Part shown: positions 40,226 through 50,354 of the stretch, piece after piece
Position numbering within the stretch: position 1 is the stretch's first letter
How the letters are laid out: each line of letters begins with the position of its first letter
Source: Myxosarcina sp. GI1
Lineage (GTDB): Bacteria > Cyanobacteriota > Cyanobacteriia > Cyanobacteriales > Xenococcaceae
Reading direction: 5' to 3'
Assembly: GCF_000756305.1 (NCBI RefSeq)
Contig: NZ_JRFE01000014.1
Span: 587,006 to 651,005, forward strand
Length of the DNA: 64,000 nucleotides
The notes under the pieces: model-generated
The model's database searches: none
What the model saw: only the letters and a program-made list of their open reading frames with translations
What the model was told of the DNA's origin: nothing
Made by a program: the position numbers and the translations under genes

Positions 40226-40264
40226 CTAGTTTAGGTGTGGTCTTTAGTTAAAAATACTCAATAC

Positions 40265-40966
40265 ATGAAAGCAGGAAACGATAAGGCAATTGTCAAAGAT
40301 TATTTTAATGCTACGGGGTTCGATCGCTGGCGGAGAATTTATGGCAATGCTGAAGATGTCAATAAAGTACAGCAGGATATTCGCGTTGGACATCAACAAA
40401 CTATCGATACGGTAGTTGAATGGTTGCAGCAAGACGGTAATTTAAACGAGATTTCGGTTTGCGATGCAGGTTGTGGCGTAGGTAGTCTCAGTATTCCCTT
40501 AGCTAAAGAGGGTGCAACGGTTTTTGCTAGTGATATTTCCGAAAAAATGGTAGGAGAAGCTAAAGCCAAAGCTGCAAATATTCTGGAAGATACCAGCAAA
40601 CTGACTTTTGCTGTCGAAGATTTGGAAGCCTTAGGCGGTAAATACCACACCGTTATTTGTCTGGATGTCTTGATTCACTATCCCCAAGCAGAAGCAGCGA
40701 AAATGATCGCACATTTAGCATCTTTAGCTGAGTCGCGTATTATTCTGAGTTTTGCACCCAAAACGTTTTTACTATCAATTCTTAAAAAGATCGGTGAATT
40801 TTTTCCTGGTGCTTCTAAAGCCACTCGCGCTTATCAACACAAGGAATCCAATATTATCAGTATCTTAGAGAAAAATGGCTTTGCTGTCAAACGTCAGGGA
40901 ATGACTAGCACTCGCTTTTATTATTCGCGTATTTTGGAAGCAGAACGAAAAAAAGTTAAAAGTTAA
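40265..40966 (+). CDS. bchM: Magnesium-protoporphyrin IX methyltransferase
   Basis: 233 residues from the ATG at 40265. The GTG at 40235 adds ten unlikely residues. It begins with NDKAIVKDYFNATGFDRWRR, the family signature, then the SAM-binding motif I VCDAGCGVGSLSIPLAKEG, DISEKMVGEAKAKA, and ICLDVLIHYPQ. It methylates the C13 propionate of Mg-protoporphyrin IX in chlorophyll synthesis, acting at the membrane surface. It is also called ChlM. No other chlorophyll gene is nearby. Confidence 0.94.
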   Translation: MKAGNDKAIVKDYFNATGFDRWRRIYGNAEDVNKVQQDIRVGHQQTIDTVVEWLQQDGNLNEISVCDAGCGVGSLSIPLAKEGATVFASDISEKMVGEAKAKAANILEDTSKLTFAVEDLEALGGKYHTVICLDVLIHYPQAEAAKMIAHLASLAESRIILSFAPKTFLLSILKKIGEFFPGASKATRAYQHKESNIISILEKNGFAVKRQGMTSTRFYYSRILEAERKKVKS

Positions 40967-41132: not shown

Positions 41133-43595
41133 ATGCAGATGATTGATTCATCTCAGTTTATTGCTACCGAATCTTTGGGGAGTAAGGGAGAGACAGCAGA
41201 ACGGTTAGTTTGGGAGGGAATTAAAGCTAGTTTTGGCGAGCGCAACTGTTTGGCGTATTGGCGTTACCCAATTTTTTCTAGTACGGGTAAATTTCGCAAA
41301 GAACCAGATATTTTAATTGCCGATTATTGGTTGGGTTTAATTGTTATTGAAGTTAAGGGAATTAATATTGAAAACGTTGCTGCAATAAATGGTCATCGTT
41401 GGGAATATCGAAACTTTTATACTGACTACGGCAATCCCTATCAACAAGCAGAAAATCAATTATATAGTTTATTAGAATATTGCGATCGCGAGCCTTTATT
41501 AAATAAACGAGTTACCGCTAGAGCGATGGTAGCTTTGCCGTTAATTACCCAGGAAGAATGGCAGCAACTAGGTTTTGACAAACTACCAAATAATCCACCA
41601 ATTCTATTTAAAAATAGCTTCAGTTCGCCAACATCAACTTTAGAATCTATTACTAAAGCCTCGGTAATTAGATCTGGTGTTGGACTAACCTCAACTCAAT
41701 GGCAATTATTGCTGGCAGTTTTGGGTGGTACGACACTATATATCCAACCCTATAGAAGCAGACCAACGGGAAATGACACTCGTACTAATATTATCCAACA
41801 GGCGCGATCGCGTCTCAATCGACTGGACTTACAGCAAGAAAAGCTAGCCAAACAAATTCCACCAGGAATGCAAAGAATTAGAGGTGTTGCTGGTTCTGGC
41901 AAAACTGTAATTCTCTGTCAAAAAGCCGCACTGATGCACGTTAAATATCCACAGTGGCGGATCGCATTAGTTTTTTTTTCGCGGAGTTTGTACGAGTCGA
42001 TAACCCAACAGGTAGAGCGATGGATACGTTATTTTACTAACGGCGATCGCGGCTACGACCGACAATCCAATTTAAAAATATTACACGCCTGGGGTAGCAG
42101 AGAACAACCTGGTTTTTATAGTACTATTTGTAAACTAACGGGTGTTAGACCTTTAGGCGTTAACTATACCGAACTTCAACAGCCTAACGAAGCTTTAGCC
42201 GAAGTTTGCGTTCGCTTATTAGAAGCTACTGCCATACCGCAGCTTTACGACGCTATCTTAATCGACGAAGGACAAGATTTAATTGTCGAGCGTTGGAAAT
42301 ATCGAGACAAACAACCTTTTTACTGGTTAGCATATCAGGCTTTACGTCCCGTCAATCCCATTCATCCCGAACAAAAAAGGCTAATTTGGGCTTATGATGA
42401 ATTGCAAAGTTTGGATAGTTTGTATACTCCTGATGCTTGCGAACTGTTTGGAGAAGAACTAGGACATTTAGTTACGGGTAAGCACAGTAACGATATCAAT
42501 AAAACCGAAATTTTAACTTGTTGCTATCGTACTCCCAAACAAATTATAGTTACCGCTCATGCGATCGCAATGGGATTATTGAGAAAACAGGGAATGCTGA
42601 CGGGTTCAATTTATCCTGAAGAATGGCAGGCATTAGGTTATCAAATAAACGGTAACTTAGAAAACGGCACGTTGGTTACTCTCAAACGCCACGACAAAGA
42701 TTCACCCAATTTAGTTGGCGAACTATGGTCGGAAAATATTATCGAATTTAATAAATTTTCAACTCGTCAACAAGAATTAAGCGTTTTAGCAGACAACATT
42801 AAATATAATTTAGCCACAGATAAATTACGAAGCGATCGCGAAATTTTAGTTATAGTTTTAGGGACTTTCTATGTCGCAGCGGAACTAGAATTAGAAGTTG
42901 CTAAATTTTCAATCAGACAGGGACTTAATATTTATCTGCCTACAAATAGCGATATTAACATTTTATATACCGAACCAGATAAACGCTTACCAGACTGTTT
43001 TTGGCATAGTGGTGCAGTAACTATTTCTACTATTTATCGAGCTAAAGGACAAGAAGCAGATATGGTATATTTAGTCGGCTTAGATAACATTGCCAGACAG
43101 GAAGATAATCTGTCTTTACGCCATCAATTACTTGTTGCTCTAACTCGCTCTAAAGGTTGGGTAAATATTAGCGGTATCGGAGATTATTCTTTATACAGAG
43201 AATTAGAAGTAATTATAGCCAGTGACGATACGATTGAGTTTACTTTTAACGCTCCCATGCAAAAAACTATTGCTATAGGCGATCGCGCCGAACTATTAAC
43301 AGGTTATGCTTTAGGAAGAACCAACTTTCGACATGCTAATTTATTCCAGGCAGATTTATCAGAGTTAAACTTGGCAAATATCAATTTAATCGATGCTAAC
43401 CTATCGGAAGCCAATTTAACTAATACTAACTTATCGGGAGCAAAGCTAATTGCTGCTAATTTATCGGGAGCCAATTTAACTAATACTAACTTTACCAAAG
43501 CAAAATTAATCAGCGCAAATCTAATCAATGCAAATTTAACTAACACTAACTTTACCAAAGCCGATTTAACCAATATTATTTTGAATGACAATTAA
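41133..43595 (+). CDS. NERD nuclease - SF1 (UvrD-like) helicase - pentapeptide-repeat fusion
   Basis: 820 residues. Residues 10-140 are NERD-like: SKGETAERLVWEGI (E20/E23), FRKEPDILIAD (D59) and LIVIEVKGINIE (E73, K75), a PD-(D/E)xK nuclease pattern. A superfamily 1 helicase core follows: Walker A RGVAGSGKT (251-258), Walker B YDAILIDEGQD (D378/E379), RLIWAYDELQSLD (motif III), CCYRTP (IV), TISTIYRAKGQEADMVYLVG (V) and LLVALTRSKGWV (VI). From about 730 to the end lie some 17 pentapeptide repeats (ANLSEANLTNTNLSGAKL-type), a beta-helix that can mimic DNA. All catalytic motifs appear intact. It is a single gene, 53 bases before holA. A role in DNA repair or phage defence is inference. Confidence 0.9.
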   Translation: MQMIDSSQFIATESLGSKGETAERLVWEGIKASFGERNCLAYWRYPIFSSTGKFRKEPDILIADYWLGLIVIEVKGINIENVAAINGHRWEYRNFYTDYGNPYQQAENQLYSLLEYCDREPLLNKRVTARAMVALPLITQEEWQQLGFDKLPNNPPILFKNSFSSPTSTLESITKASVIRSGVGLTSTQWQLLLAVLGGTTLYIQPYRSRPTGNDTRTNIIQQARSRLNRLDLQQEKLAKQIPPGMQRIRGVAGSGKTVILCQKAALMHVKYPQWRIALVFFSRSLYESITQQVERWIRYFTNGDRGYDRQSNLKILHAWGSREQPGFYSTICKLTGVRPLGVNYTELQQPNEALAEVCVRLLEATAIPQLYDAILIDEGQDLIVERWKYRDKQPFYWLAYQALRPVNPIHPEQKRLIWAYDELQSLDSLYTPDACELFGEELGHLVTGKHSNDINKTEILTCCYRTPKQIIVTAHAIAMGLLRKQGMLTGSIYPEEWQALGYQINGNLENGTLVTLKRHDKDSPNLVGELWSENIIEFNKFSTRQQELSVLADNIKYNLATDKLRSDREILVIVLGTFYVAAELELEVAKFSIRQGLNIYLPTNSDINILYTEPDKRLPDCFWHSGAVTISTIYRAKGQEADMVYLVGLDNIARQEDNLSLRHQLLVALTRSKGWVNISGIGDYSLYRELEVIIASDDTIEFTFNAPMQKTIAIGDRAELLTGYALGRTNFRHANLFQADLSELNLANINLIDANLSEANLTNTNLSGAKLIAANLSGANLTNTNFTKAKLISANLINANLTNTNFTKADLTNIILNDN

Positions 43596-43648: not shown

Positions 43649-44626
43649 ATGCCTATATATTTATATTGGGGAGAAGACGATTTCGCCATCGCTAAAGCAG
43701 TAAAACAACTACACGATCGCGTTTTAGATCCTGACTGGCTACAGTTTAACTATCAAAAGCTGACAGGCGATCGCGGCGAAACAATTATTGAAGGTTTGAA
43801 TCAAGCTATAACTCCCGTATTTGGTATGGGAGAGCGTTTGACGTGGCTAGATGATACTACTATTTGCCAGCAGTGTTCGCAAGATACCTTAACTGAATTA
43901 GAACGCACATTAACTGTTATTCCCGACAATTCTCATTTACTTTTAACTACCACTAAAAAACCAGATGGAAGATTAAAGTCTACCAAGCTAATTAAAAAAC
44001 ACGCTGAGGTTAAAGAATTCAGCTTAATCCCTCCCTGGAAAACTGAAATAATTGCTAGTAAAATAAAAGATTTTGCCCAAGAAATAGACATTAACTTAAC
44101 ACCAAAGGCAATAAAACTACTAGTAGATTCTGTAGGAAACAATACCAGACAATTATGGAACGAACTAGAAAAACTACAGATTTATCAAGGAGAAAATAAG
44201 AATGCGATCGATGAAGAAATAGTCCCTAAACTAGTTGTTTGCAATACCCAAAACAGTCTCAAACTCGCCGCAGCAATTAAAGATGGCAAAACAGAAACAG
44301 CCTTAGAATTAGTTACGGGTTTGATCGATCGTAACGAACCTGCTTTAAGAATTATTGCTACTCTAGTCGGGCAGTTTCGCACCTGGACGATAGTTAAACT
44401 AATGCAGGAAGCAGGAGAAAAAGACGATCGCGCGATCGCCACAGCAGCAGAAATTAATAATCCCAATCGACTTTACTATATTCGCCAAGAAATCGCTCGC
44501 GTTTCAGGACAACAATTTATGACTGCTTTGCCGATGCTTTTAGAGCTAGAATATAGCTTAAAAAGAGGTGCCGAACCTTTAGCAACACTACAAACCAAAG
44601 CGATCGAACTAGCTAATTTATTTTAG
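43649..44626 (+). CDS. holA: DNA polymerase III delta subunit
   Basis: 325 residues of the HolA/clamp-loader delta type. It begins MPIYLYWGEDDFAIAKAVKQL and continues FGMGERLTWLDD, LLLTTTKKPDGRLKSTKLIK, and the C-terminal collar domain with RNEPALRIIATLVGQFRTW and LELEYSLKRGAEP. It opens the beta clamp for loading on DNA. No zinc site is expected in delta. It follows the NERD-helicase gene on the same strand with a gap of 53 bases, so the two may be co-transcribed. Confidence 0.93.
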   Translation: MPIYLYWGEDDFAIAKAVKQLHDRVLDPDWLQFNYQKLTGDRGETIIEGLNQAITPVFGMGERLTWLDDTTICQQCSQDTLTELERTLTVIPDNSHLLLTTTKKPDGRLKSTKLIKKHAEVKEFSLIPPWKTEIIASKIKDFAQEIDINLTPKAIKLLVDSVGNNTRQLWNELEKLQIYQGENKNAIDEEIVPKLVVCNTQNSLKLAAAIKDGKTETALELVTGLIDRNEPALRIIATLVGQFRTWTIVKLMQEAGEKDDRAIATAAEINNPNRLYYIRQEIARVSGQQFMTALPMLLELEYSLKRGAEPLATLQTKAIELANLF

Positions 44627-49891: not shown

Positions 49892-50152
49892 ATGAGCAAA
49901 TACAAAAAACTACTGCAAAAAATTCTTACAGGAACATCCGATAACAACATCAACTTCTCCGAACTGCGACAGCTACTTAAAAAACTTGGATTTGAGGAAC
50001 GCGTCAAAGGCGGACACTATATTTTTACTAAGGTTAATGTAGAAGAAATCATTAATTTGCAGCCCAAGAGTGGCAAAGCTAAAAGTTACCAAGTTAAGCA
50101 AATTAGAAATTTAGTTGTGAAATATCGTTTAGGTGATAGTAATGTCGATTAA
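49892..50152 (+). CDS. hicA: HicA-family toxin
   Basis: 86 residues, slightly longer than typical HicA, with NINFSELRQLLKKLGFEERV and KGGHYIFTK (conserved catalytic His in the GSHxxF-like position), then LQPKSGKAKSYQVKQIRNLV. HicA is an mRNA interferase that blocks growth unless held by HicB. It overlaps the antitoxin gene by 11 bases, and the order toxin-antitoxin is usual. Both appear intact. Confidence 0.9.
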   Translation: MSKYKKLLQKILTGTSDNNINFSELRQLLKKLGFEERVKGGHYIFTKVNVEEIINLQPKSGKAKSYQVKQIRNLVVKYRLGDSNVD

Positions 50153-50354
50153 ATACGAACTAATTATTTATTGGAGTGAAGAGGATGGAGCTTTTATTGT
50201 AGAAGTCCCAGAATTACCTGGATGTATGGCAGATGGTGAAACCTATATTGAAGCAGTTAGCAATGCCGAGGTTGTTATTCGAGAGTGGATCGAAACAGCT
50301 CAAGAGTTAGGACGTTCTATTCCCACTCCTAAAGGACGGTTACTCTATGCTTGA
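50142..50354 (+). CDS. hicB: HicB-family antitoxin
   Basis: 70 residues from the ATG at 50142, overlapping the end of hicA. It shows the partial RNase H-like HicB core (YWSEEDGAFIVEVPELPGCM, ADGETYIEAVSNAEVVIREW, IETAQELGRSIPTPKGRLLY). It neutralises HicA. No DNA-binding domain follows, so autoregulation may come from the core or be absent. The coding overlap indicates tight co-translation. Confidence 0.92.
   Translation: MSIKYELIIYWSEEDGAFIVEVPELPGCMADGETYIEAVSNAEVVIREWIETAQELGRSIPTPKGRLLYA

Follow-up and report, generated by a model that had tools for sequence, protein, structure and literature searches.

What can a cyanobacterial protein be for that joins a NERD domain, an SF1 helicase and a tail of pentapeptide repeats in a single chain, and is the combination anything other than the accident of one genome? 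The question is posed by an open frame in the 64,000-nucleotide stretch of Myxosarcina sp. GI1 DNA analysed here (the window), in which the features used below lie as follows.

41133..43595, + strand: protein of 820 aa with NERD, SF1 helicase and pentapeptide-repeat parts (open frame; Pfam)
41184..41495, + strand: NERD nuclease domain, residues 18-121, with E23, D59, E73, K75 and Q105 (Pfam PF08378, E 6e-5)
41883..41906, + strand: Walker A GVAGSGKT, residues 251-258 (K257 in 95/95 tailed and 41/41 tail-less rows)
42264..42278, + strand: motif II DEGQD, residues 378-382 (D378, E379 and Q381 in 95/95 tailed and 41/41 tail-less rows)
42432..42479, + strand: candidate tail-docking segment, residues 434-449, between motifs III and IV (putative, from aligned ranges and conservation)
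43017..43169, + strand: C-terminal helicase core with motifs V and VI, residues 629-679 (Pfam PF13538, E 2e-10)
43305..43592, + strand: tail formed by a pentapeptide beta-helix, residues 725-820, opening with the cap YALGR-TNF (Pfam PF00805, E 4e-26)
43323..43511, + strand: conserved stripe on one face of the tail, residues 731/733, 751/753, 771/773 and 791/793 (20-residue spacing)
40235..40966, + strand: chlM, Mg-protoporphyrin IX methyltransferase, the upstream neighbour (Pfam PF07109, E 3e-39)
43649..44626, + strand: holA, DNA polymerase III delta, the downstream neighbour (Pfam PF06144)

Pfam recognises NERD, UvrD_C_2 and Pentapeptide together in the 820-aa polypeptide. The NERD match, at 23.9 bits, is a modest one (cut-off 22.1), and the pattern read from the sequence is E23, D59, E73-x-K75 and Q105; we take D...ExK to be the nuclease pattern of NERD domains, supplied here by D59, E73 and K75. 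In the helicase body the segments that we take to be motifs I, Ia and II-VI are GVAGSGKT (I, 251-258), FFSRSLY (Ia, 281-287), DEGQD (II, 378-382), AYDELQSL (III, 420-427), CCYRTP (IV, 463-468), residues 630-649 (V) and ALTRSKGW (VI, 669-676). UvrD_C_2 scores 40.9 bits over residues 629-679 (cut-off 27.4); the UvrD-helicase N-terminal family PF00580 reaches 15.2 bits, below its cut-off of 23, which marks the protein as a divergent member of the SF1 superfamily and not one of that Pfam family. Comparison of the structural model shows a body resembling the helicases UvrD, RecBCD, AddAB and SLFN11, the fold match to UvrD having a Z of 20.1 and the residues of motifs I and II being invariant. Ranked by E-value, the first Foldseek match was the Schlafen helicase SLFN11 of humans; taken over the whole model, its TM-score is low, at 0.29. 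Sequence matches to solved structures fall in the tail, and the three that touch the body have E-values of 0.8 or worse. The tail itself matches PF00805 in four stretches at 90.8 bits (cut-off 20.2). The initial annotation had placed these parts, with intact motifs, in one polypeptide, and both Pfam and the residues conserved in 95/95 tailed proteins bear this out; its repeats are likewise real, while its count of about 17 becomes 19 when repeat-like pentapeptides are counted from residue 725, the first of them belonging to the cap. Since every one of the 95 tailed proteins has D59, E73, K75, K257, D378, E379 and Q381, the motif pattern is more than chance, and the protein may be an active helicase and nuclease.

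When residues 1-716 were used as query, relatives at E 1e-30 or better were found in 26/27 genomes of the window's family, in 141/291 of its order and in 56/386 drawn from the phylum; the absence of any relative from half of the order argues against an essential function. From the matches listed, 140 near-complete loci were chosen and the best frame of each was read, giving, with the window and a paralogue from its own genome, 142 proteins: 95 tailed, 41 tail-less (40 loci and the paralogue L002) and six dropped from the counts. The six are L073 and L094, which lie at contig ends, L122 and L171, which are truncated, L162, which is tailed and lacks its N-terminus, and L180, which bears another C-terminal extension. 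L074, whose tail is broken, was entered as tailed, and L176, L182 and L002 were excluded from comparisons of residues between tailed and tail-less proteins.

In a FastTree phylogeny of residues 7-690, from which the tail is absent, the 95 tailed proteins, drawn from 18 families, make up one side of a single branch with support 100, and the 41 tail-less proteins lie outside. An earlier tree that included the linker agrees, with three truncated rows falling inside the tailed clade. By this tree the tail is of single origin, fused on once. The initial annotation had proposed a search for conservation of the fusion with intact motifs, and had named a fusion of two adjacent genes in this genome alone as what would undo its case; the fusion is conserved throughout a clade of this size and support, and the one-genome explanation fails. 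A split version was also sought: among 40 tail-less loci with neighbours, only one, L150, has a pentapeptide-like gene in reach, which encodes a different protein of 1182 aa, four genes away. All 12 tailed families with at least two rows are monophyletic, against one of seven tail-less families, a contrast weakened by the presence of several tail-less copies per genome. The tailed genes look vertically inherited, along family lines.

Other records were searched as well. Among the matches listed for named genomes, 79/80 loci gave a frame (those of L192 and L209 being broken), and 12 were tailed, all with cyanobacterial titles. Plasmid records numbering 43 were matched, and of the 20 listed none aligned beyond residue 724, with the proviso that the low-complexity filter of BLAST may hide tails; two were checked by annotation, with coding sequences of 2175 bases (L278) and 1608 bases (L279). 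In one frame read from each of 12 relatives on viral contigs, a pentapeptide tail was not found. Several tail-less plasmid relatives are annotated as 'nuclease-related domain-containing DEAD/DEAH box helicase', while L278, from a Calothrix plasmid, is called 'rfrA pentapeptide repeat-containing protein' and L279, from a Chondrocystis plasmid, 'pentapeptide repeat protein', although both are tail-less helicases. Presumably these names were carried over from tailed proteins, which would mean that tailed sequences are already in the databases.

Other members of the collection deserve mention. The tail-less paralogue in the window's own genome (G000:C43:61931-64141; L002, L003) has 764 aa, is 38% identical and has an intact NERD triad; its sister on the tree, L176, occupies the position of a gene on a Gloeocapsopsis plasmid. 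The extension of L180 (3708-6194), outside the tailed clade, is of about 100 aa. Among tailed proteins, L175, L177, L159 and L185 (families f2/f15) have some insertions near residues 163-216 and 506-512, in frames of 970-1007 aa.

Conservation of the putative nuclease follows the tail. All 95 tailed proteins have D59, E73 and K75; the 41 tail-less proteins have D59 in 41, E73 in 34 and K75 in 20, so that the complete triad is seen in only 18/41 of them, even though their helicase residues K257, D378, E379 and Q381 are intact in 41/41. The initial annotation had held that tail-less homologues with no loss of conservation would count against it: such homologues do exist, but in other lineages, and 23/41 lack at least one residue of the triad. 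Parsimony on the tree requires at least seven changes between intact and broken triads, none of them within the tailed clade, which accounts for 61 to 64% of the branch length. A branch-length argument puts the probability of this by chance at 0.0009 with seven losses and 0.018 with four, as a rough figure, seven being the parsimony count and long outgroup branches having been removed by hand. An independent-pairs test of tail against intact nuclease yields one pair only and, since the tail arose once, is unable to reach significance; for the same reason an effect of the tail is statistically inseparable from that of anything else arising on the same branch. Given that the nuclease residues are always intact where the tail is present and were lost repeatedly where it is absent, it is tempting to suggest that a mobile, defence-type NERD-helicase was domesticated once for chromosomal maintenance and that the tail is the restraint that makes an active nuclease safe, a scenario that we regard as possible, if doubtful.

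What, then, is the tail? Passages of a 2021 review define a pentapeptide repeat protein by at least eight contiguous repeats and a square beta-helix (PMC8145042). The 19 repeats found here exceed that number, and model residues 716-820 superpose on 5dns at 1.1 Å over 105 residues. The initial annotation had suggested that such a tail, by mimicking DNA, might recruit a topoisomerase or serve as a decoy, and the corresponding alternative is that gyrase is recruited or inhibited by it, in the manner of MfpA and Qnr. The fold is indeed shared, with MfpA (2bm4) aligning over 91 residues at 0.9 Å (Z 17.3), and passages of the same review liken the size, shape and electrostatics of MfpA to those of B-DNA (PMC8145042). 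Identity to MfpA is, however, 10%, and the NCBIfam scores are 17.2 bits for MfpA (cut-off 360) and 25.2 for Qnr (cut-off 240). The DNA-like acidic surface, which for MfpA is taken from that description, is not matched here: by composition only, this tail has seven positive and eight negative residues (net -1), and the 95 tails have a mean net charge of -1.8 (range -9 to +5). Tails that are nearly neutral, score far below both cut-offs and, as set out below, conserve lysines and aliphatics where acids would be expected make DNA mimicry very improbable, and the proposals of the initial annotation that depend on it are not supported.

Nor does the tail behave as a passive appendage. The dN/dS of the tail lies between 0.05 and 0.32 in the 23/24 close pairs that allowed its calculation, against 0.08-0.25 for the body in 24 close pairs, and by this measure the tail is under purifying selection in 23/24 pairs. 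Each coil of a pentapeptide helix has four faces, which places residues at a distance of 20 above one another. One face has unusually fixed outward residues: N751 with I753, K771 with I/V773 and K791 with M/V/I793, with N731 above them. In 79/95 tails N751 is accompanied by an aliphatic residue at 753, and K/R by an aliphatic at both 771/773 and 791/793. This conservation was equalled by 8/20000 random sets of four repeats, or 17/20000 with the whole five-repeat face, the true chance level being about four times the raw count, since the face was picked after inspection of the alignment. K/R plus an aliphatic, occurring twice and 20 residues apart, was seen in 1/386 repeat pairs from 19 pentapeptide frames of the window's genome. 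In the DNA of the tail, positions 43387-43561 form a tandem repeat of 60 bases, or one coil (2.9 copies, 79% match), a hint that the tail grew one coil at a time. That the tail is inert baggage, a fusion merely tolerated, might be argued from the tail-less relatives, which manage without one, and from a genome so rich in pentapeptide stretches that it gives 80 matches to the family; yet within the tailed clade the only rows short of a full tail are L073 and L094, at contig ends, and L074, a broken frame, and these facts, with purifying selection and a specific stripe, leave that idea hardly credible. The proposal that the stripe forms a dock or binds a partner is part of the explanation preferred below, and shares the even chance that we give to the whole of it.

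Structure prediction points to where a dock might lie. AlphaFold2 gave a pLDDT of 88.7 and pTM of 0.88 for the whole protein (820 aa, 38 rows); when the body was modelled by itself (712 aa, 38 rows) the values were 88.4 and 0.89. Since a floating tail should pull the pTM of the whole clearly below that of the body, the tail is predicted to be placed and not floating; a per-residue split of the pTM assigns it about 0.8 (0.74-0.89 given rounding). This argument from pTM, an indirect one, suggests that the tail is fixed rigidly to the body. In VIA-align, four matches (6omx, 2j8i, 3nb2 and 3sqv) have aligned model ranges running from residues 446, 434, 445 and 445, respectively, into the tail, the remaining pentapeptide rows beginning at residue 715 or later, which hints that the helix pair 435-447 adjoins the tail cap. 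G449 and, less strictly, H445 are conserved in tailed but not in tail-less rows, and P369, P395 and F396 also distinguish the two groups; the flanks 428-436 and 452-456 are, on the contrary, more conserved in tail-less rows, which counts against a dock, so that the candidate site at 434-449 is drawn from four VIA residue ranges and mixed local conservation. So placed, the tail may act as an autoinhibitor covering the path of the DNA, an idea already put forward in the initial annotation. It might instead be a module for oligomerisation or partner docking in a larger complex, possibly on RNA polymerase in the manner of HelD, which is among the structural matches (Z 17.1), and the conserved outward face would suit such a role. 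HelD is, however, just one of many SF1 helicases matched, the tailed clade has no universal neighbour, and the model scores favour contact of the tail with its own body, all of which makes this arrangement unlikely.

The gene neighbourhood bears on whether the protein serves the chromosome or defends it. The initial annotation had inclined to an accessory setting, which is not borne out: the gene follows family lines, and of eight neighbour clusters present in five or more tailed loci the three that are annotated are all core genes. These, which stay with the tailed gene along its lineages, are chlM, at most two genes upstream in 13 tailed loci, one truncated locus and the window; a gene for a VTT-domain protein, which we take to be DedA-like, no more than two genes away in 21 tailed loci; and AdoHcyase in nine. 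None of the three lies beside a tail-less gene; recurrent neighbours, each in 3-4 loci, are seen with tail-less genes too. When the genes called in the fetched loci were grouped by BLAST, a neighbour common to the entire tailed clade was not found, nor did any similar protein from the other 140 loci group with the window's holA; for this reason a functional link through an operon with holA was not drawn. A toxin-antitoxin pair had also been noted nearby. A HicA-like and a HicB-like gene do lie at 49892-50354, about 6 kb away, both above Pfam cut-offs (HicA barely), but a decayed pair was not identified.

The main rival to a chromosomal role is that of a resident, fixed nuclease-helicase directed against phages or plasmids, whose tail would detect a protein of the invader or keep the nuclease in check before infection. 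It is the main rival because related domains occur in defence systems and five of the eight neighbour clusters are unannotated. PADLOC matches the 'Helicase' profile PDLC03002 over residues 202-710 (1e-85) and the 'NERD+UvrD' profile PDLC01087 over residues 227-563 (4e-15), the tail being outside the aligned range of both. Passages of PMC10952713 name NERD as a component of Mokosh type I and of Nhi-like systems, and in Hachiman, according to part of PMC12278908, the helicase holds the nuclease back until DNA damage is met. Against this stand the descent of the tailed gene along family lines, the core nature of those recurrent neighbours that are annotated, and a set of 50,697 phage records in which residues 1-716 had no match at E 1e-10, and we consider a defensive role rather unlikely.

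The explanation that we prefer, with about an even chance of being right, is that the protein is a chromosomal genome-maintenance nuclease-helicase whose tail is a docked scaffold or restraint. Intact nuclease residues, family descent and core neighbours, where annotated, make the processing of chromosomal DNA the most economical account. A vertically inherited chromosomal enzyme of cyanobacteria would translocate on DNA by means of its helicase and feed the NERD nuclease within the same chain, the substrate being damaged or stalled chromosomal DNA under processing. The pentapeptide beta-helix, presumably fused on once in the ancestor of the lineage, would be held rigidly against the body of the helicase, perhaps at the stretch that separates motif III from motif IV, and the stripe of N/K plus aliphatic residues would provide the dock or partner site through which the tail positions or restrains the nuclease-helicase. 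We infer the enzymatic activity, the role in DNA maintenance and the regulatory role of the tail; the docking is predicted from the model only. The sequences themselves show the architecture, the single origin on the tree, the kept active-site residues, the selection acting on the tail and the family-wise descent. This looks like a real, unstudied kind of DNA-handling machine and not an accident of one genome. According to passages of the 2021 review, the space of structures and functions of pentapeptide proteins is for the most part uncharacterised (PMC8145042). Here, across 18 families, a pentapeptide domain with a definite conserved face is tied to a catalytic partner of recognisable activity, which makes the role of the domain directly testable.

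As far as the searches show, the architecture is undescribed: no description of a NERD-helicase-pentapeptide fusion was found in the literature searched, with most subscription journals outside its coverage; the fusion is not described in passages of PMC10853773 and PMC2743650, and the word 'helicase' is absent from the 2021 review (PMC8145042). Its nearest relatives are the tail-less NERD-SF1 helicases, which have the same body at 38-54% identity (near-complete proteins, among the matches listed), or 27-50% for those on plasmids (20 of 43 listed), and differ in lacking the tail, in a triad complete in only 18/41 and in family monophyly in only 1/7. The STM2767 family helicases of NCBIfam (NF053713) give E 9e-23 at 80.6 bits, against a cut-off of 550, and the protein is not a member. 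The alignments to UvrD (4c2t and 2is4; Z 20.1 and 19.6) and human SLFN11 (7zel; Z 18.5), over 332-365 residues, cover the helicase core only, and neither NERD nor tail.

AddAB and AdnAB also couple a helicase to a nuclease, and their SF1 core is matched with a Z of 16.5; here, in contrast, a single chain carries NERD at its N-terminus and a pentapeptide tail. RfrA, the manganese regulator of Synechocystis, is described in parts of PMC8145042 and PMC7020235 as a protein of 398 aa with N-terminal repeats. The present protein, with 820 aa and C-terminal repeats, is set apart from it, by that description, in length and layout. Alr5209 and NP275, stand-alone pentapeptide proteins of cyanobacteria, have the square beta-helix in common with the tail, at 36 and 39% identity. 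Unlike these two, and unlike MfpA and Qnr, the beta-helix described here is fused to a helicase.
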